Both the position numbers and the translations under genes were made by a program. Shown here piece by piece: positions 3,105-19,540 of a stretch of 20,526 nt of DNA. Numbering within the stretch: the first letter of the stretch is position 1; each line of letters opens with the position of its first letter. This DNA is from a virus. The stretch is taken from positions 1 through 20,526 of the IMG/VR virus record IMGVR_UViG_3300040801_004580. One strand, written 5' to 3'. The notes beneath the pieces were generated by a model. It had not been told where the DNA came from and made no database searches. It saw only the letters and a list, made by a program, of their open reading frames with translations.

Positions 3105-3151
3105 TAATTCAGTTAAGGGAGTTCCCCCTCCCTCGCTAGATTGGAGACTCA

Positions 3152-4484: not shown

Positions 4485-4828
4485 TGGTCGTTTTGGTTAC
4501 GGGGGGACGCAGCTACCACGGTGATGTTTCATGTCTCGAGCAAATCAATGATATCGACATGCTCATTCACGGCGGTGCAAGTGGCGCAGACATCAAAGCA
4601 GCACAATGGGCGCAATCAAAGGGCATTCATACAGCTCGAGTTGACGCTCTTTGGAATCACTACAACAAAGCGGCTGGCTACAAACGCAACAGCGCCATGT
4701 TGTTACTCAAGCCTGATTACTGTGTAGCATTCCCGGGTGGGCGCGGCACAGCGATGATGATTGATTTGTGTAGGCGGAGCGGTATTCCTGTTTGGCAGCC
4801 CTACTCAACAGAAAGTGAGACCAACTAA
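4484..4828 (+). CDS. SLOG-superfamily protein (DUF2493/YpsA-like nucleotide binder)
   Basis: 114 residues with the Rossmann-like SLOG signature. VLVTGGRSY opens the fold, HGGASGAD (29-36) is the nucleotide-binding loop, GYKRNSAM (65-72) follows, and FPGGRGTA (83-90) is the second glycine loop. SLOG proteins bind nucleotides or NAD-derived ligands. DUF2493 members are frequent in phages, where their role is unproven. The start overlaps the preceding stop by one base, and the ssb start overlaps its stop by one base. Confidence 0.85.
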   Translation: MVVLVTGGRSYHGDVSCLEQINDIDMLIHGGASGADIKAAQWAQSKGIHTARVDALWNHYNKAAGYKRNSAMLLLKPDYCVAFPGGRGTAMMIDLCRRSGIPVWQPYSTESETN

Positions 4829-5652
4829 TGGCTCGAGGATTCAACAGCGTTCAACTCATCGGCACGGTCACCCAACAACCCGAATTACGCTACAGCGCAA
4901 GCGGTCTTGCCATCCTTGACATCCAACTGGCAGGCAGCGACAGCATCATCGACGATGACGGTAAACCCCGTGACATTGCTTGGTATCACCGCGTAACCGT
5001 ATTTGCCAAACAAGCCGAGATACTCGCAGACATTTTAGACATCGGCATGCCCGTCTTTGCGGAAGCCCGTCTTAACTACAACAGTTGGGAAGACAAGACC
5101 AGTGGTCGGCGCAAAAGCAGCCTCAACCTGAAAGCCCTGCGCGTGCAAGCCCTCACCGAAGGAACGCGGGGCGATGATGCGGTGTTATCTGATGCACGCG
5201 GGCAGCCTCGCCTCAAAAACGCCCTCAACAACGTGCTGGTGATTGGCAACCTGACCAAAGACGCCGAACTGCGCTACACGCCCAACGGGCACGCGGTCAC
5301 CCGCCTCAGTCTTGCCGTGAACGAGTCGTACAAAGACCGCAGCGGCAATGACCAAGAGAACGTGCACTTTGTTGATGCGCAAGTGTGGCGCAGCCTCGCT
5401 GAAGCCTGTGGCGAACTGAAAAAGGGCGCACCTGTGCTGATAGCTGGGCGCTTTGTGACCGACAGTTGGGATGACAAGGACGGCAACAAACGCTATCAAA
5501 ACCGCATCGAAGCCAGTCGGGTGGAGTTTTTGACGCGGGGAAATGGGCAGACGCAGCAGCCGGCTGACAGCAACCGACCCGCGCCGCCATCGCCTTCTCG
5601 CAAGTTAGACATTGACGAAGAGTTTCCCCCAGAAGACGATTTGCCGTTTTAA
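4828..5652 (+). CDS. ssb: Single-stranded DNA-binding protein with two OB folds (Deinococcus type)
   Basis: 274 residues. OB fold 1 spans about 1-115 (MARGFNSVQLIGTVTQQPELRY, WYHRVTVF) and OB fold 2 about 127-245 (NNVLVIGNLTKDAELRYTPNG, HFVDAQVWRSLAE). A Pro/Gln-rich linker and the acidic tail DIDEEFPPEDDLPF follow, the protein-interaction tip that recruits replication and repair partners. Two OB folds per chain is the special arrangement of Deinococcus and Thermus SSB, which act as dimers, so this gene marks the host lineage. It covers ssDNA during phage replication and probably works with the DnaB, clamp and initiator encoded further right. It contains only one CTCGAG, at its start. Confidence 0.97.
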   Translation: MARGFNSVQLIGTVTQQPELRYSASGLAILDIQLAGSDSIIDDDGKPRDIAWYHRVTVFAKQAEILADILDIGMPVFAEARLNYNSWEDKTSGRRKSSLNLKALRVQALTEGTRGDDAVLSDARGQPRLKNALNNVLVIGNLTKDAELRYTPNGHAVTRLSLAVNESYKDRSGNDQENVHFVDAQVWRSLAEACGELKKGAPVLIAGRFVTDSWDDKDGNKRYQNRIEASRVEFLTRGNGQTQQPADSNRPAPPSPSRKLDIDEEFPPEDDLPF

Positions 5653-6902: not shown

Positions 6903-6918
6903 CTCGAGCTAAGCTACC
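6898..6918. other. Hairpin over the end of the rightward operon
   Basis: GGTAGCT (6898-6904) and AGCTACC (6912-6918) form a 7-bp stem with a 7-nt loop over the stop codon (6900-6902). There is no T tract, so it may protect or process the mRNA end before the terminator at 6952. Confidence 0.4.
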
Positions 6919-6951
6919 ACTATCCCCCCTGCGGCTTAGGCTTCAGGGTGC

Positions 6952-6977
6952 GCCGCTCGCAAGGGCGGCTGCTTTTT
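6952..6977 (+). terminator. Terminator between convergent operons
   Basis: GCCGC (6952-6956) pairs with GCGGC (6965-6969) and is followed by five T (6973-6977). The T tract includes the stop codon of the converging minus-strand gene, so the two operons meet at this point. The stem is short, hence moderate confidence. Confidence 0.55.
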
Positions 6978-7341: not shown

Positions 7342-7576
7342 CGAACCCCAACGCGGCTTTTGTCACCTTCAGCAAGCTAGGCTTGACTATACCTGTCATC
7401 TGTTTAATAGGTTGGCCGTTACGCGTGACCGCTACAACCTCAACCTTGCCATCAGCGGCGTCAACAACTGTGAACTCGTAGTGCGCACCCGTTAAGGCTG
7501 ATTTGCGGCTGAAGGTCACGCGGTCAGTAGGAATAGCCACAGGCGGTTCAAGCAAAGCGGTTTGGGTTTCAGGCAT
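7334..7576 (-). CDS. Unknown protein, 80 aa
   Basis: No family recognised. The middle (RVTFSRKSALTGAHYEFTVVDAADGKVEVVAVTRNGQPI) reads as a small beta-sheet domain. It overlaps both neighbours by 8 nt, so it is very likely translated by coupling. It could be a small phage inhibitor or accessory factor, but nothing in the sequence says which. Confidence 0.65.
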   Translation of the reverse strand: MPETQTALLEPPVAIPTDRVTFSRKSALTGAHYEFTVVDAADGKVEVVAVTRNGQPIKQMTGIVKPSLLKVTKAALGFDG

Positions 7577-7769
7577 TTTCTACCACCCCTTGACCGTCTA
7601 CAACACCCGTGAGGTCAGTGTGAATCTCAAAGCGCGGCAACGTGTCATCTGTGAATATGGCCTTGTCGCGCTTGATGTCAGTTTCAACATGCCGCAAGTC
7701 TAGTGTTTGCAGATATTGAATGCCTTGCTCGAGTGCCTCAATCGTAATATCTGGATATTTGTTTACCAT
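7569..7769 (-). CDS. Unknown protein, 66 aa
   Basis: No family recognised. It is acidic and short, with an N-terminal helix (IEALEQGIQYLQTLDLRHVETDIKR) and the segment FTDDTLPRFEIHTDLTG. It is the first gene after a 153-bp gap. On its own strand CATAAT lies 8 nt before the ATG, which could be a -10 box giving a nearly leaderless mRNA, but I see no good -35. The downstream gene overlaps its end by 8 nt. Confidence 0.6.
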   Translation of the reverse strand: MVNKYPDITIEALEQGIQYLQTLDLRHVETDIKRDKAIFTDDTLPRFEIHTDLTGVVDGQGVVENA

Positions 7770-7922
7770 GTTTTTAGATTATGTGAGTATGCATGTTTGT
7801 GTCTGTGCAAGCCCAAAAAAGGGACGCACTCTCAAACAAGCTCACGCTTGCTTCCCCTGAGATATGCGCCCAAGCAACCGTCGATTGGAGAAAAGCGGTT
7901 GCGGATTGATTGTAACAGAAAA
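7770..7922. other. Gap in the leftward operon with a weak hairpin
   Basis: No gene seen. CAAGC/GCTTG (7837-7850) makes a 5-bp stem with a 4-nt loop. On the minus strand it is followed 17 nt later by six T (7815-7820). It may weaken transcription toward the last three genes, but it is not a convincing terminator. Confidence 0.3.
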
Positions 7923-8165
7923 CTACTCCAAAACTATCTGCTCAGGCGGCTGTGGTAACGCCCGCCAGTGTGTAACGGTAACAATTTTGAACGTTTGCCC
8001 ACATACTTGTAAAAACCACGATTCACCTCGGCGGAACGCGACACGATATGTTTCAGCGTTGCCGTCAACCATCCCTACGGTCAAAACAAGCACTTCTTCA
8101 GGTGGTAACAAATCACTAGCAGATACCCAGTCGTTGTACAGCTCGAGAAATTCAGCCCATGTCAT
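7923..8165 (-). CDS. DUF551-like phage protein, 80 aa
   Basis: The C-terminal VTVTHWRALPQPPE matches the hallmark VTHWMPLPEPP end of DUF551, and WVSASDLLPPEEVLVLTV fits the WISV.ERLP....VLV opening of the same family. These small proteins are common in early regions of tailed phages and their function is not known. It overlaps the upstream gene by ATGA. A 153-bp gap follows it. Confidence 0.8.
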   Translation of the reverse strand: MTWAEFLELYNDWVSASDLLPPEEVLVLTVGMVDGNAETYRVAFRRGESWFLQVCGQTFKIVTVTHWRALPQPPEQIVLE

Positions 8166-8359
8166 GTGGGGCTGTTAATCTGTTGCTCGAGCCATGCCAC
8201 ATTATCCTCGAGCAACCTAATCACCTCATCACGTGACGTTGGTTCAGCAGCCCCCAAACGCCGTGCATAGCCTCGTGCCATATCCCAGGCAGACGCAACG
8301 TCTTTGCCCGCCTTCAGTGTCTTTATAACAGCGCGTTTGTGCGTGATTTCGTGAATCAT
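8162..8359 (-). CDS. Unknown protein, 65 aa
   Basis: No family recognised. It is a basic, largely helical small protein (KRAVIKTLKAGKDVASAWDMARGYARRL, then RDEVIRLLEDNVAWLEQQI). It overlaps the clamp gene upstream and the DUF551 gene downstream by ATGA, so its start and its place in the operon are secure. Coupling directly behind dnaN could mean a clamp-linked role, but there is no direct evidence. Confidence 0.7.
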   Translation of the reverse strand: MIHEITHKRAVIKTLKAGKDVASAWDMARGYARRLGAAEPTSRDEVIRLLEDNVAWLEQQINSPT

Positions 8360-9510
8360 GATGTCCTCAGAGGCACGACCATTGCCAATGACTGCTCACC
8401 TTCAGGTTGAAACAGCGCTGGCGATGTCGCACCCGAAAACTTAACCCGCACGTTTTGACCACGAAACTGCTGTAAAGCGTCGGTGAGATATGAGCCGTTA
8501 AATGCCCATGCACCCGCGTTACCTGACATACCATCAACTGCGGCTTCGTCAGACGCCTCACCGCTGCTTGACTCTGCCGTGAGAGTAAGGTTGCCACCCT
8601 CGAGCAACCCTAAGTCCACTCGGTTATTTGCGTGGGTATCAGAAAGCAACAACACCCGCTTCGTAACATCGGCAAAGTCATCAGCGGCAACATCAAACTC
8701 ACTCACAAAATCAGCCGGAATCACCCGCTCGTAGTCGGGAAATGACCCTTCCATTAGTTCGACCATCAGTAGCGTCTTATCGGTAGCAAACACAACCTGT
8801 GAAGGACGCTTTAAAGTTGGCGTAACGTCAAGCACACCAACGTCACCGCCGCTGCTAACGAACGTCACATTAATGCTAGTGGCATCAGCAAACGTTTTGG
8901 CAACGGCAGGAACAAGCGCACGGCTCAAGATAGCCTTGTAGGGAAATGTGGTGTCTAATGCTAGTTCCTTGTACGCCATACGAAAACCATCCGTAGCCAC
9001 AACCCGCACACCATCCGCTTGCGGGTCGAGCAAAACGCCTCTAAAGACGGCTTGGTACTCTTGCGCTGAACTGGCATAAAGTACATCGTTCATGGCTGCC
9101 AACACAGCGTCATCTGGCAAAGTGGTGTGCGACTCGAGCGCCCCTAACTCAGGCATACCCACAAGCTGATTGGCAGCGCCATATTCATCGGAAAGCAGCG
9201 ACAAACGCGGTTTGAATGTGCCACACGATAGCTCGAGCCTGTTGTCATCGGCCAACGAAAGTGCGGTCAGTTCGCCCGCTTTGCCCAGAGCGCGTACGAC
9301 ATCACCAAAGGTGTGAACGTTGACGTAGAACTCGAGCGGTGCTTCAACATCCGCTTTGACCTTATGGGCAATACCGTACTGACCGTAGAGGCGAAACAAC
9401 ACACCGTCACCAGCAGCTTTGACGTGTAGCGGCGAGATACTCGAGCCTTTGGCCGCAGGCGTAATGATGCTCATAGCCTCGGCAAGGGGCTTGTTTGGAA
9501 TATGAATCAT
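8356..9510 (-). CDS. dnaN: DNA polymerase III beta sliding clamp, phage-encoded
   Basis: 384 residues. The start at 9510 (MIHIPNK) has GGAG five bases upstream and overlaps the preceding stop by ATGA. The longer open frame to 9633 runs through another gene. The beta clamp ring tethers polymerases to DNA. Family marks are AVFRGVLLD, VRVVATDGFRMAY, the EGSFPDYERVIP motif, NNRVDL, AWAFNGSYLTDAL and the closing VVPLRTS (usual end VMPMRL). The three-domain length is normal. Phages seldom bring their own bacterial-type clamp. Here it travels with DnaB, SSB and an initiator, suggesting the phage supplies much of its own replisome. An acidic insert (ESSSGEASDEAAVDG) lies near the C-terminal domain. 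Confidence 0.95.
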   Translation of the reverse strand: MIHIPNKPLAEAMSIITPAAKGSSISPLHVKAAGDGVLFRLYGQYGIAHKVKADVEAPLEFYVNVHTFGDVVRALGKAGELTALSLADDNRLELSCGTFKPRLSLLSDEYGAANQLVGMPELGALESHTTLPDDAVLAAMNDVLYASSAQEYQAVFRGVLLDPQADGVRVVATDGFRMAYKELALDTTFPYKAILSRALVPAVAKTFADATSINVTFVSSGGDVGVLDVTPTLKRPSQVVFATDKTLLMVELMEGSFPDYERVIPADFVSEFDVAADDFADVTKRVLLLSDTHANNRVDLGLLEGGNLTLTAESSSGEASDEAAVDGMSGNAGAWAFNGSYLTDALQQFRGQNVRVKFSGATSPALFQPEGEQSLAMVVPLRTS

Positions 9511-9860
9511 GAAAACTCCAATCTGGGTTGCAAATTTAGTAGCCGTGGAACGCAGTATTTCAGCCGCAAGCTTGATATGTCTGCGAGGGGTGGGGTGGCA
9601 AAACCTAGTAACGCGTCTTCGTAGCTCAGGCAACGCTCGAGATGCTGATACAGCAGCGCGTTTTGCTTGGCTACCTCGAGCATGGTGGCAATTTCTACAA
9701 ACGGCGGGGATGCGGTGGTATCAATAAGCAATGGTGGCTCTAAACGACCCGCTAAGCATTGGGTAAAGACGCGGTAACCTTTTGCGTGGTGAGCGGCGAT
9801 AAGTGTCGCTGATTGATATTCAAAACACACCTGCTTGGGATAAAACCAAATTGTCACCAT
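9507..9860 (-). CDS. Unknown protein, 117 aa
   Basis: No family recognised. It reads as a mixed alpha/beta protein (VTIWFYPKQVCFEYQSATLIAAHHAKG, then FVEIATMLEVAKQNALLYQHLERCL). Its end overlaps the dnaN start by ATGA, so it is translated immediately before the clamp. A CTCGAG site encodes its Leu-Glu pairs. Confidence 0.65.
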   Translation of the reverse strand: MVTIWFYPKQVCFEYQSATLIAAHHAKGYRVFTQCLAGRLEPPLLIDTTASPPFVEIATMLEVAKQNALLYQHLERCLSYEDALLGFATPPLADISSLRLKYCVPRLLNLQPRLEFS

Positions 9861-9866
9861 GCGACC

Positions 9867-10067
9867 CTAGAGTTCTTCATCCCAGCCTTTGGGCGGCGGG
9901 GCTTCGTGAACACGTTCAAAGTTTTGCAAAAAGGCAGGCTTGGCAATCTCAAAAGTGATGCCACCATTACCGAAAGCCCGAACATGCACACTTTCTGCTG
10001 TTACATCGTCGGCAACGTACACGCGTTTGGTGTATTTGTGCTGGTACGGCACACCTGTAAGAATCAT
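9867..10067 (-). CDS. Unknown protein, 66 aa
   Basis: No family recognised. It is a small beta-rich protein (RVYVADDVTAESVHVRAFGNGGITFEI) ending in an acidic PPPKGWDEEL tail. It overlaps the nuclease gene by ATGA upstream and is 6 nt from the next gene. The acidic tail recalls protein-interaction tips, but that is only a resemblance. Confidence 0.65.
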   Translation of the reverse strand: MILTGVPYQHKYTKRVYVADDVTAESVHVRAFGNGGITFEIAKPAFLQNFERVHEAPPPKGWDEEL

Positions 10068-10549
10068 GCAACCTCCAAAGGCGCTGGATAAACAGGTGCA
10101 TTATCCAACTGCCCTTTTTCGTACATCAGAGCCAGCTTGAAAGCCTGTTCGGCTTTATGAACGACCTGCACAAAGTGACCGTTGGCAACCATGTCGCGCA
10201 AGAATGCGTCTTGATCGCTACCTGCACGCACCTTGGCGTGGCGTTTATAGGCAGGCTGGTCTTCTGCGAGTAGTTTGTTGGCGGGGCGTTTGAACTCGAG
10301 CCAACACCCCACATACCGCCCCCGTGGGATGGGATACTGCACATCAGCCACACCTGCTTTTGCACCCATCTGCTTGAGTTTGGCAGCCACTGCGATGTGG
10401 CGGTCTTCCCCATTAGGGATGTGAAGCCAGTAGCGCCACGTCGAGTAAGTGGTGAGGTATGGCTCGAGCAACTCGAAGAACAAGATTTGCTCGGTTTGCT
10501 CGAGGGTGTGGCGTTTGCGTTGTTTGTAGACGTGGGAATGCTTAGGCAC
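10064..10549 (-). CDS. VRR-NUC family nuclease (PD-(D/E)XK fold)
   Basis: 161 residues, taking GTG at 10549 as start because it overlaps the preceding gene by 8 nt, as other junctions here do. An ATG at 10606 is possible but lies far inside the upstream gene. The VRR-NUC core is plain: HIPNGEDRHIAVAAKLKQMG (43-62), the catalytic Asp in AGVADVQYP (D69), WLEFKRP (E85 and K87), then Q98 in DQPAYKRH. The family includes structure-specific nucleases and phage Holliday-junction-like resolvases. In this operon it probably processes replication or recombination intermediates. Confidence 0.85.
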   Translation of the reverse strand: MPKHSHVYKQRKRHTLEQTEQILFFELLEPYLTTYSTWRYWLHIPNGEDRHIAVAAKLKQMGAKAGVADVQYPIPRGRYVGCWLEFKRPANKLLAEDQPAYKRHAKVRAGSDQDAFLRDMVANGHFVQVVHKAEQAFKLALMYEKGQLDNAPVYPAPLEVA

Positions 10550-10892
10550 TGGTTGTGTTGTCAATCTGAACCAGCTCGTGACGCAACAGGTCTTCCAAGG
10601 ACGCATGAGCCGTGATGACCTCGGCGGTTGGGTTTGGGCGTAATACCAAAGCGTGGAAAAGTGGCTGTAAGCAACGTGGCGCGGTCATAGCTTGCATAGT
10701 GACGTTGACACCTTCAAGCGCATAACGACGCCACATTTCAGCCCGCACACGACTGACATCAACCTCCCCTGCGTACTCGCACGACCATCCACCACCCTCA
10801 AAAGCAATCTCGTTGGCATAGTCCGCGTCGATGGGATGCCAAGCGTGGTAGCTCGAGCCATCATGAGTAATCTTGTACGCCTTGGCTTTCAT
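10542..10892 (-). CDS. Unknown protein, 116 aa
   Basis: No family recognised. The start at 10892 is chosen for GAGGTG upstream and the ATGA overlap with the previous stop. The frame is open to 10925 but that extends into the neighbour. It is rich in Trp, Tyr and His near the N-terminus (SYHAWHPIDADYANEIAFEG, WSCEYAG) and more helical later. The nuclease gene overlaps its end by 8 nt. Confidence 0.65.
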   Translation of the reverse strand: MKAKAYKITHDGSSYHAWHPIDADYANEIAFEGGGWSCEYAGEVDVSRVRAEMWRRYALEGVNVTMQAMTAPRCLQPLFHALVLRPNPTAEVITAHASLEDLLRHELVQIDNTTSA

Positions 10893-11389
10893 GGCGTCAC
10901 CTCGGGATACCAGCGCACAGGACAAAGTGCGTCGGCATACACCTCAACACGGCCCACCCACTCTGGCGTGAGTAATTCGCTTCGCTTGGGCAAACTGGCT
11001 TCGGAGAGTACAACGAACATCACGCGCTCAGTTGGGCTTGGCAGGGCTTCGCTAAGGCTGTCGCAGGCTGTAGCGAGGCGGTAAGGGACGTTGAGGATGC
11101 TCGAGAGTGCCTTGACCACTTTGCCAGTGTCGCTTGCGTCTTCATCCTGCTGTGAGATACCAACAATGAGGTTTGGCAGGCGGCCATGAACGGTTAGAAA
11201 GTGCTGATACTGTTGCTGCATAGGTAGTGGCGTCGTTGCCACGATGCGCTTAGCAGCCGCTATCTTGCGTTTGGCGCGTTTGATGGCTTTACCCATATCG
11301 CGTTGTTGCTCGCGGCGGGCATGGCGCGTAGTTGGTTTAGGCATGAGGGTAGTATCTCGAGCTTGTAAACGGTTTGTCTGTGTGGTCAT
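10889..11389 (-). CDS. Unknown basic protein, 166 aa, downstream of dnaB
   Basis: No family recognised. The N-terminal third is strongly basic (TRHARREQQRDMGKAIKRAK and onward), like a nucleic-acid-binding or polymerase-tethering tail. The rest is a compact alpha/beta stretch with VVLSEASLPKR and WVGRVEVYADALCPVRWYPE. The start codon overlaps the dnaB stop by ATGA. An internal ATG 16 codons in is an alternative. Coupling to the helicase suggests a replication accessory role. Confidence 0.65.
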   Translation of the reverse strand: MTTQTNRLQARDTTLMPKPTTRHARREQQRDMGKAIKRAKRKIAAAKRIVATTPLPMQQQYQHFLTVHGRLPNLIVGISQQDEDASDTGKVVKALSSILNVPYRLATACDSLSEALPSPTERVMFVVLSEASLPKRSELLTPEWVGRVEVYADALCPVRWYPEVTP

Positions 11390-12732
11390 AATTGCGGCGT
11401 CCTTGCAAGGCTAGCAAAGCGGGTGTGCTTACCATTCCACGAGAGGTCAACTGTTCCAACAGGGCCATTGCGTTGTTTGCCGATGATGAATTCCGCCAGC
11501 CCTCGCACACTTGGGTCATCGGGGTTGTAGTATTCATCTCGATACAAAAACGCCACAAGGTCAGCGTCTTGCTCGAGCGCGCCTGATTCGCGCAGGTCAC
11601 TCAACTGTGGCCGCTTGTTGGGACGTGATTCAACTGCTCGGCTTAACTGTGATAGTGCCAAGATGGGCACATGAAGCTCACGCGACAGATTTTTAAGTTG
11701 GCGGCTGATCTTGCCGTATTCCTGCACGGGATTGCCGTTACCAATAGACATAATTTGCAAGTAATCTAAAACAATTAAACGCACGTTACCCAATTTGGCG
11801 CACTGTTGGCGGGCGCGGCTGCGTAAGGTGGCGATATCAAGCTCAGCACTGTCATCGATGTACACACCACGTTGGGTGACTGTTTCAATGGAGTGCTCGA
11901 GCAACTTGGCATCGCGCTCGCCAAGCATCGTCTTAGGCTTTTTTAGCTTGTCAGCTTCGATGCTACCAATGACGCTCATGCAACGCCCAGCCAATTCTCG
12001 AGCTGACATCTCGAGCGAAAACACTAAGCTCGAGCCTTCTTTGGCTGCCGTGAGCGCCATCAACAGTGCTAATGCCGTTTTACCCATTGAAGGACGGGCA
12101 GCAAGAATCGCCAACTGCCCCCCAACAAGGCCACCTGTCTTAGCGTCAACGTCGTGTAAGCCGCTCGAGATACCTGGTAAACCGTCTGGTTGCTCTTGCA
12201 TGGTCTTGACGTATTCACGCACTTCTTCGGCGGCCTCACCGATAGGAACGAAGGCGTTTTGGCTGCGTAGTTTTTGAGTAAGGGCGAAGGTCTTTTGCTC
12301 GAGCTGTTCAAAGTACGCCGTCACGTTATCAGCTTCATAGCCTTGCTGCATAAGCTGCCCAAGTGTCGAGATGGACTGACGCAACAGAGACTTGTCTTTG
12401 ACAATGCGAGCATAATTTTGCGCGTAAGCGGCGGTAGGCACGCTGTCAGCAAGACCAATCAGGTAAGAAATGCTACCAACTTGTTCGAGATTGCCAAGGG
12501 TGCGCAATTTGTCGGTCATCATCACTAAGTCAACAGGCTCGAGATTGTTGTATAGCTCGAGTGCTACACGATAAATCACACGGTGCTTTTCAGAGTAAAA
12601 ATCTTCAGGGGAAAGCACATCACGAATAACTTCAATCGTGTCATTATCAAGGAATATCGAACCCAACACACTCTGTTCAGCCTCGAGATTTTGTGGTGGT
12701 AAGCGGTATGCTGTCGTTGGAGCTACGGTCAT
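11386..12732 (-). CDS. dnaB: Replicative DNA helicase DnaB
   Basis: 448 residues, full length. DnaB is the hexameric 5'-3' helicase that opens the fork. The N-terminal domain (PPQNLEAEQSVLGSIFLD, FYSEKHRVIY) leads to the RecA-like core, with Walker A ARPSMGKT (212-219), Walker B LIVLDYLQI (319-327), LALSQLSRAVE and the arginine-finger region LRESGALEQDAD (380-391). Reading begins 10-17 nt behind a GAAAGGA string and a hairpin at 12750-12772. It directly follows the initiator gene, the classic phage order of origin-binding protein then helicase. As it brings its own helicase, no separate loader is evident unless the initiator does that job. Confidence 0.97.
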   Translation of the reverse strand: MTVAPTTAYRLPPQNLEAEQSVLGSIFLDNDTIEVIRDVLSPEDFYSEKHRVIYRVALELYNNLEPVDLVMMTDKLRTLGNLEQVGSISYLIGLADSVPTAAYAQNYARIVKDKSLLRQSISTLGQLMQQGYEADNVTAYFEQLEQKTFALTQKLRSQNAFVPIGEAAEEVREYVKTMQEQPDGLPGISSGLHDVDAKTGGLVGGQLAILAARPSMGKTALALLMALTAAKEGSSLVFSLEMSARELAGRCMSVIGSIEADKLKKPKTMLGERDAKLLEHSIETVTQRGVYIDDSAELDIATLRSRARQQCAKLGNVRLIVLDYLQIMSIGNGNPVQEYGKISRQLKNLSRELHVPILALSQLSRAVESRPNKRPQLSDLRESGALEQDADLVAFLYRDEYYNPDDPSVRGLAEFIIGKQRNGPVGTVDLSWNGKHTRFASLARTPQL

Positions 12733-12777
12733 AAGCTTAGTTCCTTTCTGGCTAGGGGCGCAATCCCTAGCCTTTTT
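12733..12777 (-). promoter_or_regulatory. Hairpin plus GAAAGGA start module of dnaB
   Basis: An 8-bp perfect stem (GGCTAGGG with CCCTAGCC, 12750-12772) is followed, in the direction of the minus-strand mRNA, by AGAAAGGAACTA and the dnaB ATG. Its T tract (12773-12777) lies on the plus-strand side, so as a terminator it would stop antisense transcription, not the operon. The same layout is found before the initiator gene and before the 166-aa membrane protein gene. Confidence 0.6.
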
Positions 12778-12785
12778 CTATGAAT

Positions 12786-13976
12786 TTAGTCGCCCGCTAG
12801 TGCCGCGTGTGCGGGTTGCACCCACTTGGGAAAAATGTTGTGGGCAAAGTTGCCGTCAGCGTCTTCTAGCTCGAGGAAAACCTCATCTGCATCAATGATG
12901 GTGTACAACTTGCCCTCAAACAGGACTTGCTCACCCTCGCTGTATAGATCATCTGCTCGTGAAAAATTACGCAAGCGCGGAACATTTAGCGAGTTGTCGT
13001 CAATCCGTACGTGTTGTTTGAGTTGAGGGTACTGTCCGAAATCTTCGAAGAGGTCAATAAATGTCCACAGGCGTTTTTTGCCAGTGCGTTTGGCAACGCT
13101 TTTAGAAAGCTGCCACGCGGTCTCTATAAACTCGCGGGAGAACTCGCTGTACCAGCGTTGCCAGTTGTCTTTGACTTGGCGGTAGCTAGCATTTTGCGTG
13201 CCGATAGTTTGCCGGAGGTGGTTAAGCTGTTCGGATTTTTCGGGGGAGAAGGGGGAGCTGTAGGTGCCGTTGGCACGTTGGCGCATTTCTTCGGCGAAGC
13301 GATCTTCGGATGATGGGATATAGGCGGCGTCACTTTTTGGCTGCTCGCCCTCCTCCTTCTTATTAACCTTCTTATTAAGTTCTTCTTCCTTATATGACAT
13401 GGGGCATGTACTGATAGCTTGCCGTTGGGTATGGTCTACGTACTGGCGTTGGCTATGGTCTATCCCTTGTTCTGGGACATGTCCCATATCTGATAGGAAA
13501 GGGCTTTTTGGCGTTTCTACGTACTCTTGTTCTGGGGTATGGTCTGTTACTGATGGGAAAGGCATTTTTTGCACTTCACCTGTGACGCCGTATTGTTCCA
13601 AAAGCACCGTTAAAGCATCGTCAAGATGTGGCTCGAGCAACTCAGCCAATACATCAATGTGAATGGTGTAGTGAGTTTTGCAAGGGATACCTTTGCGATA
13701 TTCCGAGAGAATGCCAAGCGATTTAAGTAAACCTCGAGCGGTACGTTGAGCGTCATATCCTAAGCCCGTCTGGGTTTTGATGGCATCTTGGTTGAAGGTG
13801 AAACTATCACCTTTCAAACGACGCCGATATAAGAATTGACCGAGTAAAAGAACGGCGTCGCCATTATGAATAGCTAACCTAAACTCAGGCAGTATGCAGA
13901 TAAATGAACGCATGAACTTTCTCCCTTGGTTCTTACTGTTAGTAGTTGACTTACTTGCTATACTGCTTGCAGTCAT
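12786..13976 (-). CDS. Lambda-O-like replication initiator candidate
   Basis: 396 residues. The start at 13976 lies 6 nt behind GGAAAGGA. An ATG at 13913 (MRSF), behind AGGGAGAAAG, is a plausible alternative. Residues 22-112 look like a winged-helix DNA-binding domain (FNQDAIKTQTGLGYDAQRTARGLLKSLGIL). Residues 135-215 are a low-complexity linker with tandem 8- and 20-residue repeats. The last 180 residues form a separate Trp- and acid-rich domain that could contact DnaB. Winged helix, repetitive linker carrying DNA repeats, and position just before dnaB all match the organisation of lambda O, which binds the origin inside its own gene. Family membership is inferred, not proven by a sequence match. 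Confidence 0.65.
   Translation of the reverse strand: MTASSIASKSTTNSKNQGRKFMRSFICILPEFRLAIHNGDAVLLLGQFLYRRRLKGDSFTFNQDAIKTQTGLGYDAQRTARGLLKSLGILSEYRKGIPCKTHYTIHIDVLAELLEPHLDDALTVLLEQYGVTGEVQKMPFPSVTDHTPEQEYVETPKSPFLSDMGHVPEQGIDHSQRQYVDHTQRQAISTCPMSYKEEELNKKVNKKEEGEQPKSDAAYIPSSEDRFAEEMRQRANGTYSSPFSPEKSEQLNHLRQTIGTQNASYRQVKDNWQRWYSEFSREFIETAWQLSKSVAKRTGKKRLWTFIDLFEDFGQYPQLKQHVRIDDNSLNVPRLRNFSRADDLYSEGEQVLFEGKLYTIIDADEVFLELEDADGNFAHNIFPKWVQPAHAALAGD
13350..13560. other. Putative replication origin with iterons and an AT-rich segment
   Basis: TATGGTCT occurs at 13430, 13454 and 13538. A degenerate copy falls at 13478, so three successive copies are 24 bp apart and the last is 60 bp further on. 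CTTGTTCTGGG and the TGAT.GGAAAGG block recur with the same 60-bp step. Beside them is an AT-rich tract with two tandem copies of CTTCTTATTAA (13356-13366, 13368-13378), like unwinding-element repeats. Location inside the initiator's linker mirrors ori-lambda. The repeats are seen directly and the origin function is inferred. Confidence 0.5.
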
Positions 13977-14027
13977 TGTTAATCCTTTCCACTAAGGGAT
14001 TTGGGCGTGCTAGGAACACGCCCTTTC
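13977..14027 (-). promoter_or_regulatory. Hairpin plus GAAAGGA start module of the initiator gene
   Basis: GGGCGTG and CACGCCC (14003-14023) form a 7-bp stem with a 7-nt loop. Downstream on the minus strand comes GTGGAAAGGATTAACA and then ATG. The stretch is the whole gap between two genes. The T-rich side again faces the plus strand. Confidence 0.6.
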
Positions 14028-14357
14028 TTATTGCCGTTGCCGCTCGAGCTGCGCTGCTGCCATCAAGAGATAGCCTAGTGCGGCTTTCCAGTCTTCTTCG
14101 GGGTCGTGGGCAGGTAAATTGCCGCTGTCGGCCACTTTCTCACAAGCGTCCAAAATCTCGGCATGTCTAAGGGTCACCTTGGCTTTGCCTGTTTCGTAGA
14201 GCGCCACGCGTTCGCGGGGGCAGTCGAGCAAGACAGCTACTTGGTGCTGGCTGTAGTTGAGTTTTTCCCGAATGGTGCGCACTTCTTCGGGGGTCATGTA
14301 GGACTCTTCTTCCAAAGGCGCATTAAAGGTCACGTCAAACAACGCAAGCTGTTCCAT
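14028..14357 (-). CDS. HTH (XRE/Cro-type) DNA-binding protein
   Basis: 109 residues. The start at 14357 is picked because GGAG lies 5 nt before it. GTG at 14363 and ATG at 14360 overlap the preceding stop but are too close to that site. The XRE helix-turn-helix covers MTPEEVRTIREKLNYSQHQV through RVALYETGKAKV. A C-terminal helical region (about 60-109) is acidic then rich in Ala and Arg. It may regulate the middle of the operon, sitting just ahead of the initiator module. It resembles antitoxin-type regulators, but no toxin is adjacent. Confidence 0.8.
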   Translation of the reverse strand: MEQLALFDVTFNAPLEEESYMTPEEVRTIREKLNYSQHQVAVLLDCPRERVALYETGKAKVTLRHAEILDACEKVADSGNLPAHDPEEDWKAALGYLLMAAAQLERQRQ

Positions 14358-14359
14358 CA

Positions 14360-14938
14360 TCACTCCAAACTGAATTTGAGATTCTCGAGATAGCGCCGCA
14401 AACTGGCGGCATACTGCGGGGCAAGGGAATACGACAGGCTTTCCACGGTGGTCTTTTCGCTCATATTTGACGCACTTGCGATACCCTCTGCTTTGACGTC
14501 AATTTGAGTTAAGATGTTGCCTTCTTTGTCGCGTTTGCCAGAGGTAACTTTGACCTCCCAACCACGCGACACCGCCCACCACCACAAAGCGTTAAAGATA
14601 ATGGCATCTTGCTCAGCGCTTAGGTGATGGTTGCTATCAAGCGTGAGATGGGTCTCTTGGCTGTTGTAGGGGTAGCGAAAAGTGACCTCGTAATGACCGT
14701 GTACGTCTTCGGGGCGCAGATCGTCTTCACTAAAGTCGCCTTCTACCGCTTCACCTTTGACCATGGCGACGGCTGCTGCTCGCATCTTCTCGGGCAAATG
14801 GTTAAAGGTTGGCTCGAGTTCTACGATGGGTTTCGTACCAGCTTGACCATGCAAGTCAGCAATTTCCAGCAAACACGTAATCACATGCCACGAGGTGGTG
14901 TGTGGGGCGCTGTCGGTAAACAGTGGGGCGTCAAGCAT
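14360..14938 (-). CDS. Unknown protein, 192 aa
   Basis: No family recognised. The visible regions are a helical N-terminus (SWHVITCLLEIADLHGQAG), an acidic middle (GDFSEDDLRPEDVHGHYEV), a helix with three Trp in a row (FNALWWWAVSRGWEVKV), and a Ser/Tyr-rich end. The start overlaps the upstream gene by 8 nt with a CGAGGGA ribosome site. The end overlaps the HTH gene. It may be a recombination or replication accessory protein by position only. Confidence 0.65.
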   Translation of the reverse strand: MLDAPLFTDSAPHTTSWHVITCLLEIADLHGQAGTKPIVELEPTFNHLPEKMRAAAVAMVKGEAVEGDFSEDDLRPEDVHGHYEVTFRYPYNSQETHLTLDSNHHLSAEQDAIIFNALWWWAVSRGWEVKVTSGKRDKEGNILTQIDVKAEGIASASNMSEKTTVESLSYSLAPQYAASLRRYLENLKFSLE

Positions 14939-15419
14939 CGCGTCCCTCGAGCTGATTCAAGATGCGGTTCACGATGTCAACTTTGGCGCGTGATAAGAAT
15001 GGGCGAATGATGCCGTTACCTTTATCGTTTAGGCGTCCCCTCGAGCAACGCAGTAGGGTGCTTTTGGTCATAGGTTTCATCGGCTCGCCTTTTTGTGTCG
15101 TCCACAAGGGGGAGGTGTTGATGATGCGCAATACCACCTCTGGACTGGCTGCGCCTGATTCAAGAAACGTACTAAGGCGTTTGCCAAGCTCGAGATAGGC
15201 ATCCATGTCTGCATCAGGGGTAGGTGTTTTGTCGCGGCCACTGTTGGGCTGTGAGATAGCAGATAGTGCATCAGACGGGGTAGTAAGGCGCTGTTCGTAC
15301 AACGCCTCTACCAAGCCTCGGAGTTGGGCAACTTCATGACGAAGCGCCCGTAACTCTTTGGCTGTCTCGCTATCAGATAGCCCAAAGATGCCATCTTGCC
15401 GACTATGCAAGCCAGACAT
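14931..15419 (-). CDS. Unknown coiled-coil protein, 162 aa
   Basis: ATG at 15419 shares one base with the HU stop (TGATG). Residues 17-45 (SETAKELRALRHEVAQLRGL and onward) should form a short coiled coil. A Ser/Pro/Thr linker follows, then a helical C-terminal domain (AYLELGKRLSTFLESGAASPE ... RAKVDIVNRILNQLEG). No family recognised. A dimer-forming helix plus globular tail directly after HU suggests a DNA-associated or scaffolding role, not testable from sequence. Confidence 0.65.
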   Translation of the reverse strand: MSGLHSRQDGIFGLSDSETAKELRALRHEVAQLRGLVEALYEQRLTTPSDALSAISQPNSGRDKTPTPDADMDAYLELGKRLSTFLESGAASPEVVLRIINTSPLWTTQKGEPMKPMTKSTLLRCSRGRLNDKGNGIIRPFLSRAKVDIVNRILNQLEGRDA

Positions 15420-15712
15420 CAAAACGGTGACTTGTTCACCGCGTCTTTGAAGCTTTTGCCGGCTTTGAACGCGGGGTAGTCGCTTGCAGGGACTTTGATT
15501 CGTTCGGTGGTACCAGGCTTAACCGCGTCTCTTGCTTGACGGTGGCGCTTTTCAAAAGTACCGAAGCCTGTGATTGATACGCTTTTACCTTCGGCGAGGC
15601 TGGTTTCGATGCCTTGGGTAAATGCCTCGAGCACGTTCTTGACAGTTTTCTTGCTTTCGCCTGTGGCTTCGGCAATCAGGTCGATGAGTTCAGACTTTCC
15701 TACTTTTGACAT
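15419..15712 (-). CDS. hup: HU family DNA-binding protein
   Basis: 97 residues. HU proteins are small dimers that bend and compact DNA and help origins open. The family pattern is complete: MSKVGKSELIDLIAEATGES at the N-terminal helices, FTQGIETSLAEGKSVSITGFGTFEKR in the core, the DNA-clasping arm RQARDAVKPGTTERIKVPAS with the conserved Pro, and PAFKAGKSFKDAVN. The ending resembles Thermus/Deinococcus HU. AAAGGAGA precedes the ATG. Encoded among replication genes, it probably assists initiation or packaging-ready compaction. It could equally be a regulatory partner of integrase. Confidence 0.95.
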   Translation of the reverse strand: MSKVGKSELIDLIAEATGESKKTVKNVLEAFTQGIETSLAEGKSVSITGFGTFEKRHRQARDAVKPGTTERIKVPASDYPAFKAGKSFKDAVNKSPF

Positions 15713-15721
15713 AAGTCTCCT

Positions 15722-16222
15722 TTACTTCAAAAGCGCAGCGACGTCGGGGTCTACCCCTTCGATGCGCGGTTTTGACTGAGTGATTTTGGTTTGCTCATAA
15801 GGTGGCAAACCGTTTTCATTGCGTGCCTCGAGGCGTTCAATGTGCGCCTCTACTTGTGAACGCCGCCAGCCTTTTTCGCGCCCACTGAGCTTGACGCAAG
15901 GCACATACTTCAGATGACGTTTGACTGCGCCAAACTTAAAATTGGGAAAGTATTCATCCCATACTTCCTTAGCAGTCAATACGTGGTTAGGGTTCTTTTG
16001 TTCACTGGCTAGCAGTGTCTCGAGCACATCCAAGCGGTCTTGAATGGCGTCGATTTCGGGTAAGTCAACTTTGAGGTTCAACGTTGTTCCTTTCTTGGGC
16101 TTGACAGTGCGTAGGGTTAAGAACGTAAATGCGGCTTGGACGATGAGAAAGCTACCCAAAACAAAACGACCAATCGTGTCAAGGTCGCCAGCAAGGGCGA
16201 TGGCTTCACGAAGGGTCGTCAT
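15722..16222 (-). CDS. Membrane-anchored protein with coiled coil and possible HTH
   Basis: 166 residues. One transmembrane helix (about 18-37, FVLGSFLIVQAAFTFLTL) is followed by KPKK, placing the rest in the cytoplasm. Residues 50-75 (LPEIDAIQDRLDVLETLLAS) look like a coiled coil. The C-terminal part (VLTAKEVWDEYFPNFKFGAVKRHLKYV, GWRRSQVEAHIERLEAR) resembles excisionase or MerR-type winged helices. I do not recognise a named family. If the reading is right, this is a membrane-tethered DNA-binding protein next to HU, possibly holding phage DNA at the membrane. The start is fixed by an in-frame TGA 8 codons upstream. Confidence 0.6.
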   Translation of the reverse strand: MTTLREAIALAGDLDTIGRFVLGSFLIVQAAFTFLTLRTVKPKKGTTLNLKVDLPEIDAIQDRLDVLETLLASEQKNPNHVLTAKEVWDEYFPNFKFGAVKRHLKYVPCVKLSGREKGWRRSQVEAHIERLEARNENGLPPYEQTKITQSKPRIEGVDPDVAALLK

Positions 16223-16247
16223 AATTAGTAATTTGTGGTAAACTCAC
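16206..16247 (-). CDS. Possible 13-codon leader peptide
   Basis: GTG at 16247 lies 5 nt behind GAAAGGAAT, the same place that ATG occupies in the sister module at 13976. It encodes MSLPQITNYDDPS and its stop lies 15 nt inside the 166-aa gene, in another frame. Its translation could couple or limit initiation at 16222, whose own ATG is 34 nt from the GAAAGGA. Seen only as a layout. Confidence 0.3.
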   Translation of the reverse strand: MSLPQITNYDDPS

Positions 16248-16303
16248 AGTAATTCCTTTCTATTCTTAAAGGTTTTGGCGACGTTCCTACCGTCGCCTTT
16301 TTT
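16223..16303 (-). promoter_or_regulatory. Hairpin plus GAAAGGA start module, third copy
   Basis: GGCGACG and CGTCGCC (16277-16297) form a 7-bp stem with a 7-nt loop. Six T follow on the plus-strand side (16298-16303), overlapping the stop codon of the Cro-like gene. On the minus strand the hairpin is followed by AGAAAGGAATTA. As in the other two modules, terminator polarity is opposite to the operon. Confidence 0.6.
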
Positions 16304-16595
16304 AATTGCCTAGCCAGACAACTCCGTTTTTGACCGTGCCTTGATTACTAGGGGGTGGAATGTGGTTAGCAAGCTCATCTGGTAGGCTCTGTCGGTGCCA
16401 CTCCACGTCAATGCCCAAGACGTAGCAAGCCAGTAGCGCCGTAGCGGTGTGGGGTGTTGACTCCCCTTTGAACCAGCGATACAGCGTAGGCGGTTGAACA
16501 CCCAAAAGCTTGGCAAGCTTGCGTGGATTCATGCCCTTGGCACGCATCTTGGCAATGATTTCTTGCTTGATTCTTTCTTGGATTTGCTCAGACAT
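16302..16595 (-). CDS. Cro-like HTH regulator, first gene of the leftward operon
   Basis: 97 residues. The XRE-type helix-turn-helix spans about 20-50 (MNPRKLAKLLGVQPPTLYRW, FKGESTPHTATALLACYVLGI). It is divergent from the repressor gene and first in the lytic-type operon, the position of Cro in lambdoid phages. The ATG lies 6 nt beyond a -10 box, so transcription should start at or next to the A of ATG, giving a leaderless mRNA. No ribosome-binding string is present. It probably represses the repressor promoter or its own. Confidence 0.85.
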   Translation of the reverse strand: MSEQIQERIKQEIIAKMRAKGMNPRKLAKLLGVQPPTLYRWFKGESTPHTATALLACYVLGIDVEWHRQSLPDELANHIPPPSNQGTVKNGVVWLGN

Positions 16596-16598
16596 TTT

Positions 16599-16636
16599 CC
16601 AATCATACTCTTATCAATTTTTTGAGTCAAGATTGG
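16599..16636. promoter_or_regulatory. Inverted operator pair flanking the leftward promoter
   Basis: CCAATC (16599-16604) and GATTGG (16631-16636) are exact inverted copies about three helical turns apart. They lie over the -10 box and just upstream of the -35 box. The symmetry extends weakly (TTTTCC on one side, GGGAAAG on the other). A repressor dimer pair could bind here. The assignment is inferred from position. Confidence 0.45.
16602..16630 (-). promoter_or_regulatory. Leftward early promoter giving a leaderless transcript
   Basis: On the minus strand TTGACT (plus 16625-16630), a 17-nt spacer and TATGAT (16602-16607) are followed by only six bases and then ATG (16595). Start of transcription is expected at the initiation codon. 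Deinococcus is known for many leaderless mRNAs with a -10 box at this distance. Confidence 0.75.
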
Positions 16637-16682
16637 GAAAGTTGTCAGTAAATCTTTGCGCCTTCTGATGCAAAAACAGCGC

Positions 16683-16706
16683 ATAGCGGCTAAAATGCCG
16701 TATAGT
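16683..16706 (+). promoter_or_regulatory. Rightward (repressor) promoter candidate with imperfect inverted repeat
   Basis: TATAGT (16701-16706) lies 11 nt before the small ORF at 16718. No good -35 is seen at 17 nt, which suits a weak or activated repressor promoter. ATAGCGGC and GCCGTAT surround TAAAAT (16691-16696) as an imperfect inverted repeat, a second operator candidate. Confidence 0.4.
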
Positions 16707-16717
16707 GAAAATCGAAA

Positions 16718-16795
16718 ATGACAAATTCTTTGGACGATCCGCTCGAGATAAAGCCCCTCCGTCTCTTGAAAACCATTAGCGGAGGGGCAATGTGA
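16718..16795 (+). CDS. Small ORF (25 aa) coupled to the repressor start
   Basis: It reads MTNSLDDPLE to TISGGAM and ends in ATGTGA, so its stop overlaps the repressor's GTG by 3 bases. Its last codons contain GGAGGGG, the ribosome site for the repressor. It could be a leader peptide that couples repressor synthesis to translation from a short-leader mRNA, or simply an open stretch. No homology is recognised. Confidence 0.4.
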   Translation: MTNSLDDPLEIKPLRLLKTISGGAM

Positions 16796-17505
16796 CCATC
16801 ATTTCTGACTTAATGGAGCGATACGGCCTCGGCAATCGCGAAGTGCTCGAGGAACTGAGCAAGCGCAATGCTGGCATTAGCGAAGGGTATTTTTCCAAAA
16901 TAAAAAATGGCAAGATACCTCTGGAGCGGGTGAAGATAACCACCCGCGAGGCCTTGCGAGATATTTTTGGGTTGTCGGTTGAAGCGTGGCGCGAGCTAAC
17001 CGGCTTGGAGATACCTGCTTTTGCACTCAAAAAAACGCCTGCGGTCGTTTCATTGTCCGAGGATTCAGAAAAAAAATCTGCTAACCAGGCAGACATAGCG
17101 TTCTTTGACACACGATACTCTCATGAAATGACTGTTCGCTCGGTATCTTCTGAACTGCTCAATCTACTTGCATTAACACCACAACGCACCGTCATTGTTA
17201 AAGTGCGTAACGATATGTATCTCGAGAAGACGATCCGAGATAAGTATCCGCATGGCTCGAGGCTCATTTTTTACACCCAACGGGTTCCTACTGATGGGCA
17301 AACAGTACTAATAAAGCTCAAGATGGCAAACAAAGATGTCTACGCCGTCGTCGAGTATCAAAAGACAAATCCGTTTTTTTCTATCCAGCAAGAAGGTGGC
17401 GAACCCAAAGTTGTTGCTGAGCCTGATGTGGAATACATCGGCGTGCTGGCTTATGGGCTTGTGCCAGAGCTCGAAGACATTCTTGACCGCTTGATGGAGG
17501 AATAA
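16792..17505 (+). CDS. CI/LexA-fold repressor without self-cleavage residues
   Basis: 237 residues, GTG start 4 nt behind GGAGGGG. The N-terminal 75 residues are a helix-turn-helix (LEELSKRNAGISEGYFSKIK). The rest resembles the S24 domain of CI and LexA: TVIVKVRNDMYLE stands where GDSMYP is usual, followed by PHGSRLIFYTQRVPTDGQTVLIKL and YIGVLAYGLV. The nucleophile Ser position is Asp (D141) and the region DVYAVVEY lacks the expected Lys, so autocleavage seems impossible. It sits opposite the Cro-like gene and directly before integrase, the expected place for the lysogeny repressor. Induction would need another route than RecA-stimulated cleavage. Confidence 0.8.
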   Translation: MTIISDLMERYGLGNREVLEELSKRNAGISEGYFSKIKNGKIPLERVKITTREALRDIFGLSVEAWRELTGLEIPAFALKKTPAVVSLSEDSEKKSANQADIAFFDTRYSHEMTVRSVSSELLNLLALTPQRTVIVKVRNDMYLEKTIRDKYPHGSRLIFYTQRVPTDGQTVLIKLKMANKDVYAVVEYQKTNPFFSIQQEGGEPKVVAEPDVEYIGVLAYGLVPELEDILDRLMEE

Positions 17506-18713
17506 TGCCTCGCTATACCATCACGGGCGCACTTACCCCTAAGCTGTGGTCATCAAGTAAGTCTAAAAGCACTAAGTATCAAATTCAAAAAATAGTGAAG
17601 TTTGCTGATGGCTCATCTAAACGCCTTACTGCTTATGGGACAACCAAGACTGCTTGTATTGACAATTTGCATGCTAAAGCGCAAACCTTAGCTGATTCTA
17701 TCGTCACCGCTGACACCATGACGTTTCGGGATGCCGCCGTGAGGTGGCTTTCCGATAAAAAGCGCTCAGGTCGTAAGTACGGCACGATTTACACGTATTC
17801 CAAAAAACTCAATACGCATTTGTTACCCGCGCTTAGTGATATGCCTTTGCATACAATCACATTCCAACATATAGAAAGCATCCTGTTTGGACTTACCGAT
17901 GAAGGTAAGTACCGAACAGCCGAACAATGTCGCATCATTCTTAATAATCTTTTCAAGTGGGCTATGCGCTATTATCGTGATGACTATCAATTACAAAACC
18001 CTGTTGACTACATCGCACCGCTGCCCAAAAAACGCCGCTCACCAAACAGCCCACAACGCGCCAACAACCTATGGACAGATGACCAACTCAAAGCGTTCTT
18101 GAATGAATCCAAGCGGCTATACGACCAGCGCAAAAGTTTGTACTATCCGTTTTATCTGCTAGCCATTGGCGCAGGCTTGCGTAGAAGTGAGCTTATCGGT
18201 TTGTCGTGGCGTAACGTCTACACAAATGAGCATGGCTGTTTTGTTGATGTCGTTGAACAGTATGTTAGCTATGACATCAGCTTCTACGAAACGCCAAAAA
18301 CTGAACACGGTACTCGAGAAATACCTATCTCAAAAGAACTTTATAACGCGCTGTTAGACCATCGTCAAATAATAGAAAAAGAATATGCCACCCGCAAAGG
18401 ATGGCAAAAAAATAATCTTGTATTTCCAAGCATCAACGGCACACCAATCACAGAGCGCAACGTATACCGTAGCCTATACAAGTTGATTCGAAAACTAGGC
18501 TTACCCAAAATCACACCGCACGATTTTAGACGGCTCTACAGTAGCCATCTAGCAAACGCCATTCATAAACAGGGCAAGTTCCCCGTCAAAATCATCCAGC
18601 AACGTCTAGGTCATGCCCGCAGTGATGTGTCGATGGAAGTCTACGTCAAGATGCTACGTGACAACGATGAACCTGCCACAGTCACAGTGCTTGCTGATGA
18701 AAGTGACGTATAA
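17505..18713 (+). CDS. int: Tyrosine integrase
   Basis: 402 residues. It recombines attP with attB at a tRNA gene. The N-terminal arm-binding region (about 1-65) is followed by the SAM-like core-binding domain (70-175; FRDAAVRWLSDKK, TYSKKLNTHLLP) and the catalytic domain. All catalytic residues are present: R226 in GAGLRRSEL, K265 in ETPKTEHG, H339 and R342 in PHDFRR, H370 in QRLGHA and nucleophile Y380 in MEVYVKM. The ATG overlaps the repressor stop by one base, so both are made from one transcript. Only one CTCGAG occurs here, so the gene may have a separate history. The attachment site follows at once. Confidence 0.96.
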   Translation: MPRYTITGALTPKLWSSSKSKSTKYQIQKIVKFADGSSKRLTAYGTTKTACIDNLHAKAQTLADSIVTADTMTFRDAAVRWLSDKKRSGRKYGTIYTYSKKLNTHLLPALSDMPLHTITFQHIESILFGLTDEGKYRTAEQCRIILNNLFKWAMRYYRDDYQLQNPVDYIAPLPKKRRSPNSPQRANNLWTDDQLKAFLNESKRLYDQRKSLYYPFYLLAIGAGLRRSELIGLSWRNVYTNEHGCFVDVVEQYVSYDISFYETPKTEHGTREIPISKELYNALLDHRQIIEKEYATRKGWQKNNLVFPSINGTPITERNVYRSLYKLIRKLGLPKITPHDFRRLYSSHLANAIHKQGKFPVKIIQQRLGHARSDVSMEVYVKMLRDNDEPATVTVLADESDV

Positions 18714-18730
18714 AATGACGTACAAACACA

Positions 18731-18767
18731 AAGACGGCATCCTCAGAAGCTCGAGAAATACCGTCTT
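18731..18767. other. Inverted repeat between integrase and att core
   Basis: AAGACGG (18731-18737) and CCGTCTT (18761-18767) form a 7-bp inverted repeat with a 23-nt loop containing CTCGAG. There is no T tract. It could be an accessory-protein site or the end of the integrase message. Confidence 0.35.
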
Positions 18768-18772
18768 AGACG

Positions 18773-18817
18773 TGGTGCGCCTGACAGGAATCGAACCTGT
18801 GACACGAGGCTTAGGAG
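18773..18817 (-). pseudogene. 3' part of a tRNA-Arg (anticodon CCU), attachment-site core
   Basis: On the minus strand the segment runs from the anticodon loop CTCCTAA through GCCTC, a T arm ACAGG-TTCGATT-CCTGT and the acceptor strand CAGGCGC to ACCA. The 5' half does not match: the bases before the loop do not pair with GCCTC, and no GCGCCTG acceptor strand lies at the right distance. It is therefore a tRNA remnant that restores the 3' end of the host gene upon integration. CCA is encoded. Confidence 0.8.
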
Positions 18818-18959
18818 TTCTATCAACAAACTACCCCATAACCGCTCGTAAATGTCGATAAGTGTCTTGCAGACGCTGCTTTTCGGATATTTATTATCAA
18901 TTACCCCGCTTGACTATCCAATGACTTAACGTCACTAATGACGTATAAATGACGTACGC

Positions 18960-19397
18960 TTATTGCTTTTCGAGCCACCGCTTGACCTTACGCCGAAGCC
19001 GCTCATCATCAACCTGCTCAACATAGGCTTGCGCCAACTCGGTGTAGTTGCTTGTCAGTTCTTCATACAACGCCTTAGCGCGACGCAAACGGGTACGCAG
19101 CGTGCGAATATAGTCACCCCGCGCTGCCGCCCTTGCTCTTGTCCGCTGCAACTCGTTGTAAATCTGCCGCACTTCCTCTTGGTATTTGCGGACTTCTATC
19201 TTGAGGTCAACGATGGCGTTTTCGCGCTCGAGCATTGTCACCTGCTTACTGCGAGCGTATTCCTTGAGGCGTTCATACTTGGCGGTTAGCTCAACGAGTT
19301 CTTGCACCAACTCGTCACGGTCACTGGGATGCTCGGGCATCGTGTCCTGGGAAAGATTGCTCACGCCACGGTGGGTAGTTTTGTTCGGGTCTTTCAT
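18960..19397 (-). CDS. Coiled-coil protein, 145 aa, function unknown
   Basis: Start at ATG 19397, 5 nt behind GGAGAG. An upstream GTG (19403) has worse spacing. From about residue 25 nearly the whole chain is charged heptad-like helix (ELVQELVELTAKYERLKEYA, IEVRKYQEEVRQIYNELQRT), turning strongly basic (RARAAARGDYIRTLRTRLRR) before a KRWLEK end. No family recognised. The ATG and its ribosome site lie in or at the right end of the neighbouring tnpB element, so that insertion may have changed its start or expression. Confidence 0.7.
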   Translation of the reverse strand: MKDPNKTTHRGVSNLSQDTMPEHPSDRDELVQELVELTAKYERLKEYARSKQVTMLERENAIVDLKIEVRKYQEEVRQIYNELQRTRARAAARGDYIRTLRTRLRRAKALYEELTSNYTELAQAYVEQVDDERLRRKVKRWLEKQ

Positions 19398-19540
19398 TGA
19401 CACTCTCCACAGCTAAAGCAGGGGGATTCTTGCGTCAACGGATGGAGCTAACGTAGTGCTAGCCTTACCCTTCCTCAGCAATTTTAGACTGGGAATATCA
19501 TGCCCAGTTGCGCCTTCTAACAAGATATTTAGGGCGGCAT
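19398..19540 (-). ncRNA. Candidate omega RNA scaffold of the second tnpB element
   Basis: As in the first element, the tnpB stop codon sits in the right-end hairpin. The guide would be read from just beyond 19397, into the coiled-coil gene's first codons. The hairpin has mismatches, so the RNA may be decayed. Limits are approximate. Confidence 0.28.

Follow-up and report, generated by a model that had tools for sequence, protein, structure and literature searches.

A probable iteron origin of replication within the linker-coding DNA of a phage O-like initiator gene

The initiator genes of phages P22, L and lambda are distantly related to one another, and the iterons that they contain are mutually unrelated (PMC8022706). 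In P22, and likewise in phage L, the O-like initiator gene 18 contains its repeats past the part encoding the winged helix; in P22 an AT-rich tract lies past the last repeat and is followed by a DnaB-type helicase gene, gene 12 (PMC8022706). In lambda, four iterons about 20–24 bp apart occupy the middle of the initiator gene O and are followed by an AT-rich segment, with the phage encoding the loader P and borrowing the DnaB of its host. In lambdoid phages, replication is lost when silent mutations in the iterons keep O from binding (PMC7466680). Among plasmids, the RepA_N initiator of pSK41 binds, through its N-terminal domain, four boxes that lie centrally in the rep gene, the central region of Rep being a dispensable linker, and the origin of the RepA_N family lies within the rep gene (PMC5703833). 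The in-gene origin arrangement itself is already known from phages lambda and P22.

Here we analysed a fragment of a phage genome, the 20,526-nt IMG/VR record IMGVR_UViG_3300040801_004580 (the window), for which a first-pass annotation had proposed an origin of the lambda type inside an initiator gene. We conclude that positions 13356–13544 are very probably the replication origin of this phage, lying within the stretch of its own O-like initiator gene that codes for the linker. This gene belongs to the O-like initiator family: its product matches phrog_9773, ‘replication initiation O-like’, over residues 41–304 (E 1.9e-12) and is weakly similar to initiators of Vibrio, Salmonella, Acinetobacter, Synechococcus and Eggerthella phages. 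As the annotation had stated, the gene directly precedes dnaB; both are on the minus strand, the helicase gene lying immediately 3′ of the initiator gene (Table 1).

Table 1 Features of the candidate origin and of its surroundings in the window
Feature	Positions	Strand	Basis or remark
O-like replication initiator gene, 396 aa	12786..13976	(-)	phrog_9773, AF2, VIA-align
Part coding for the winged-helix DNA-binding domain, residues 21-130	13587..13916	(-)	AF2; conserved in alignments A1, A2
Iteron 1 core GACCATACCCCAGAACA	13528..13544	(-)	motif script; 60 bp to next
Iteron 2 core, degenerate, GGACATGTCCCAGAACA region	13468..13484	(-)	overlaps 14-bp palindrome; repeat search and motif script
Iteron 3 core GACCATAGCCAACGCCA	13444..13460	(-)	motif script
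Iteron 4 core GACCATACCCAACGGCA	13420..13436	(-)	motif script
Possible iteron 5 GTACATGCCCCATGTCA, weak match	13395..13411	(-)	motif script; 25 bp from iteron 4
Easily melted AT-rich segment carrying CCTTCTTATTAA in tandem; probable DNA unwinding element	13356..13395		nearest-neighbour dG
DnaB-type replicative helicase, next gene downstream of the initiator	11386..12732	(-)	DnaB_C E 2.5e-86; phrog_19 E 8.1e-104
SSB with two OB folds, Deinococcus/Thermus type	4828..5652	(+)	best full-length matches: Thermus phages Lalka, Deinococcus plasmids

The AF2 model of the initiator, computed from a 30-row alignment after a single-sequence model reaching a pLDDT of only 38 had been discarded, places a winged helix at about residues 41–125 (pLDDT above 90 in most blocks). 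It predicts residues 142–221 to be a disordered linker (pLDDT below 50), giving the succession of winged helix and unstructured linker that characterizes O-like proteins with in-gene origins. The repeats and the AT-rich tract described below code for this linker, in agreement with the place that the annotation had given them. The best four solved structures found by VIA-align were 4pql, 4pt7, 5kbj and 4pta (Z 9.6–10.2, 101–110 residues aligned), which we take to be RepA of staphylococcal multiresistance plasmids, with one Rep–DNA complex among them. The RepA-like winged-helix fold is a likeness of fold, which does not by itself establish a common function. RepA_N initiators such as those of pSK1 and pSK41 share with our protein the N-terminal winged helix (Z about 10) and repeats within the gene (PMC5703833), but they serve plasmids rather than a phage, and a Pfam scan with a cut-off of E 0.1 gave no RepA_N (PF06970) match in our protein. 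Neither the family profile nor lambda O found a match when searched against PDB sequences.

No other region of the window scores as high for repeats as the linker-coding DNA. The octamer TATGGTCT, which reads AGACCATA on the coding minus strand, occurs on the plus strand at 13430, 13454 and 13538; no other 8-mer of the window has three non-overlapping copies inside 150 bp. The first two copies are 24 bp apart and the third follows 84 bp further on; between them, at about 13478, lies a degenerate copy, 24 bp from that at 13454 and 60 bp from that at 13538, which is linked to the latter by a 52-nt pair at offset 60 that is 73% identical. A perfect 14-bp palindrome, TGGGACATGTCCCA (13473–13486), falls inside the degenerate copy. 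Applied to the initiator gene, our motif script returned sites at gene nucleotides 433, 493, 517 and 541 and a weak one at 566, that is, four clear iterons and one weak one on the coding strand, spaced 60, 24, 24 and 25 bp apart. The repeats and the 60-bp duplication reported by the first-pass annotation are therefore present, and together they make up the window's strongest cluster of repeats. Its 24-bp step holds for 13430, 13454 and about 13478 but does not extend to an even array, given the interval of 60 bp. The degeneracy of site 2, the weakness of site 5 and this 60-bp interval speak against the origin reading.

Directly after the last iteron in the coding direction, the DNA becomes AT-rich. 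This segment (Table 1) has a nearest-neighbour dG of -42.3 and ranks second in the window for low stability, with 0.01% of 40-mers being less stable. It contains the two tandem copies of CCTTCTTATTAA that had been noted at first pass, which we confirmed at 13355–13378 and found to be 100% identical. An AT-rich peak just past the last iteron is common to lambda, P22 and the window. The lowest stability of any 40-mer in the window is found between genes, at 3002–3041 (dG -42.0). The DnaA-box consensus TTWTNCACA has no match in the window.

DNA repeats inside a gene also repeat the peptide, and the copies here encode the similar peptides TDHTPEQ, GHVPEQ, IDHSQRQ and VDHTQRQ. Units of the form DHT/DHS-QRQ or PEQ could have been selected as short motifs that bind DnaB or some other partner, with the DNA repeat a by-product. 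The four clear iterons are all separated by multiples of three, as such a peptide repeat would have them, so that in this gene alone the frame argument cannot separate DNA repeats from peptide repeats. Similarity of the DNA can do so. The repeat score of the array was reached by none of 300 codon-order shuffles, and the summed score by none of 3,000 synonymous recodings that kept the peptide, whether these drew on codon usage or permuted codons within the linker; the single best repeat was matched by 3 to 9 of the 3,000. Because no peptide-preserving recoding reached the summed score, the repeats exceed what the protein requires, as an in-gene origin had been expected to show. The prediction of disorder for the linker likewise counts against a repeated peptide, and together with the family survey below it makes this explanation very unlikely.

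To place the array among known systems, we ran the motif script on lambda O and P22 gene 18 as controls. It returned gene nucleotides 349, 369, 393 and 416 of lambda O, exactly the four annotated iterons, and four sites in gene 18, spaced 20, 24 and 23 bp, inside the annotated rep_origin. We then scanned IMG/VR with an alignment of relatives of the initiator, keeping 80 loci with 71 distinct genes, many of which are mutually related and do not stand for 71 independent events (29 are left at 80% identity). All 71 carry direct repeats at the same place, with a median centre 34 nt past the winged helix, and all 71 score at least 10 for repeats there, a value reached by 1.9% of stretches of equal length in other parts of these loci. 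Every family member sampled, in phages of several bacterial phyla, thus has repeats immediately past the winged helix. The best offset is 23 bp in 63 of the 71; since 23 is not a multiple of three, each copy is read in another frame than the one before it, so that a peptide repeat is excluded as their cause, and the repeated linker peptides differ wholly from relative to relative. The survey and the two controls together strongly support the in-gene iteron origin proposed at first pass. Burkholderia phage BcepIL02 shows a weak repeat peak, but the motif finder did not recover a convincing set of iterons from it. Searches of viral and genome contigs by initiator, DnaB, integrase and RNR found no close relative of this phage, and the conservation of repeats covers the layout among distant relatives rather than these particular iterons.

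The same comparison bears on a recent local duplication of the 60-bp unit, without function, in an unconstrained linker. Such an event would account for the 52-nt pair, and a linker predicted to be disordered could tolerate it. It would not explain why three to four short copies recur at 24-bp steps while their flanks have diverged, why the AT-rich tract abuts them, or why repeats occupy the same location in 71 of 71 relatives as well as in lambda and P22, and we regard it as highly improbable.

Replication initiators often autoregulate. The repeats might accordingly be sites for a regulator rather than an origin, bound by the initiator itself or by another helix-turn-helix protein of the phage, several of which are encoded in the window. 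The array, however, sits more than 400 nt inside the gene, a search for a promoter-like site near it found none, and the AT-rich melting segment directly adjoins it. Where such a layout has been studied experimentally, it has proved to be an origin (PMC7466680, PMC8022706, PMC5703833). We therefore give a purely regulatory role little credence and retain the origin reading.

Within the known systems, the plan of the window is closer to P22 genes 18–12 than to lambda O–P, because a DnaB helicase follows and no P-type helicase loader gene lies beside the initiator. P22 and the window share the O-like initiator with repeats past the winged helix, the AT-rich tract and the helicase gene; they differ in host group, in the sequence of the iterons and in their spacing (20-24-23 in P22, 60-24-24-(25) here), and the proteins are less similar than hhalign can score. 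The likeness to lambda lies in the iterons mid gene and the AT-rich segment, whereas the iteron sequence is unrelated, lambda encodes P in place of a helicase, and homology to lambda O is not significant: hhalign of the family alignment A1 against lambda O gave E 0.26, the family against P22 gp18 alone or lambda O alone gave no confident match, and lambda O matches phrog_9773 by its C-terminal part only. The ‘lambda O plan’ of the first-pass annotation thus stands for the in-gene iterons and the AT-rich flank, and gives way to P22 for the neighbouring gene. The phrog_9773 initiators of Vibrio, Escherichia, Acinetobacter and other phages share the PHROG, the winged helix and, in every case examined, the place of the repeats. 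They differ in mostly having a 23-bp period with TGCGGAAANNCCGCA-like or related motifs, in less than 47% winged-helix identity to our protein and in that many have a DnaC-like loader in place of DnaB; dnaB follows the initiator in about 10 relatives. The present phage adds one more unrelated iteron set to those of P22, L and lambda.

The annotation had also proposed that the cumulative GC-skew minimum should lie at the repeats. It lies at 3321, away from them. In lambda, used as a control, the minimum falls at 103 with the origin at 39.0 kb; because it misses the known origin, skew neither supports nor refutes an origin here, and we did not count this result as a refutation.

The repeats, the winged helix with its linker, the AT-rich flank in the order seen in lambda and P22, the dnaB gene and the layout of the family constitute the anatomy of the locus and the constraint on it, and from lambda and P22 we infer how the origin would work. 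The N-terminal winged helix would bind four, perhaps five, iterons of 17–20 bp about 24 bp apart, and the bound initiator would form a nucleoprotein complex on them. This complex would melt the adjoining AT-rich tract at 13356–13395. The C-terminal part of the initiator may then recruit the phage's own DnaB, the product of the next gene, and hand it to the opened strand, allowing initiation. As the record is a 20.5-kb fragment, a further origin may lie outside it.

Several features touch on the host. The double-OB SSB is 38–44% identical to proteins of Thermus phages and Deinococcus plasmids, which match best over its full length, and mainly on this ground the sequence suggests a host in Deinococcota. 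The first-pass claim of a phage from a phylum unrelated to that of the lambda host is accordingly plausible through the SSB; other genes gave no diagnostic signal, and the RNR fragment is uninformative on the host. The initiator family is known in Vibrio, Synechococcus and Eggerthella phages, so that another phylum is not in itself unusual. When phages of the same host were sought by means of the SSB, most of the SSBs retrieved had a single OB fold and no second initiator came to light. Our literature search found no paper on a temperate-phage origin in Deinococcota.

Other features of the window stand apart from the origin. The phage encodes its own sliding clamp (DnaN-like, 8356–9633, minus strand) and an HU-like protein (15419–15712, minus strand), which with the double-OB SSB and DnaB make up a set of replication proteins that is unusually complete for a fragment of a temperate phage. 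TnpB-type (IS200/IS605-like) genes lie near either end of the record (1541–2623 and 19413–20522, both on the minus strand), the second reaching the border. Directly 3′ of the integrase gene, at 18775–18850, is a tRNA-like 3′ part on the minus strand with the T-arm-like CAGGAATCGAACCTG, which is probably the attachment site; ARAGORN found no complete tRNA there. The palindrome CTCGAG occurs 70 times in the window (160 to 19227) against 5.1 expected from base composition and far exceeds its single-mismatch neighbours, with 1–12 copies each; across 17 genes, it encodes 32 of the 48 Leu-Glu dipeptides. Its abundance resembles that of the HIP1 iterated palindrome of cyanobacteria. The enrichment is absent in two Deinococcus plasmid stretches and in lambda, and a search for CTCGAG-rich contigs returned only generic DnaB and integrase matches and one weak match to the protein encoded at 10064–10606.

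Taken as a whole, the analysis gives about an even chance that the repeats form the in-gene iteron origin of a Deinococcota phage, with an iteron code of its own, AGACCATA, spaced at 24 bp where nearly all relatives use 23. The origin, the protein that would bind it and the helicase that it would load can be tentatively placed in a phage without a close relative in the collections searched, and the locus may offer a replicon for a poorly served host group. A lambda- and P22-style origin hidden in the initiator gene holds as a layout across every relative of the initiator family that we examined, which would make phage origins predictable from sequence in this O-like family. If true, the rule of repeats past the winged helix at about 23 bp, seen in 71 of 71 relatives, would let origins be read directly from the sequences of many uncultured phages.
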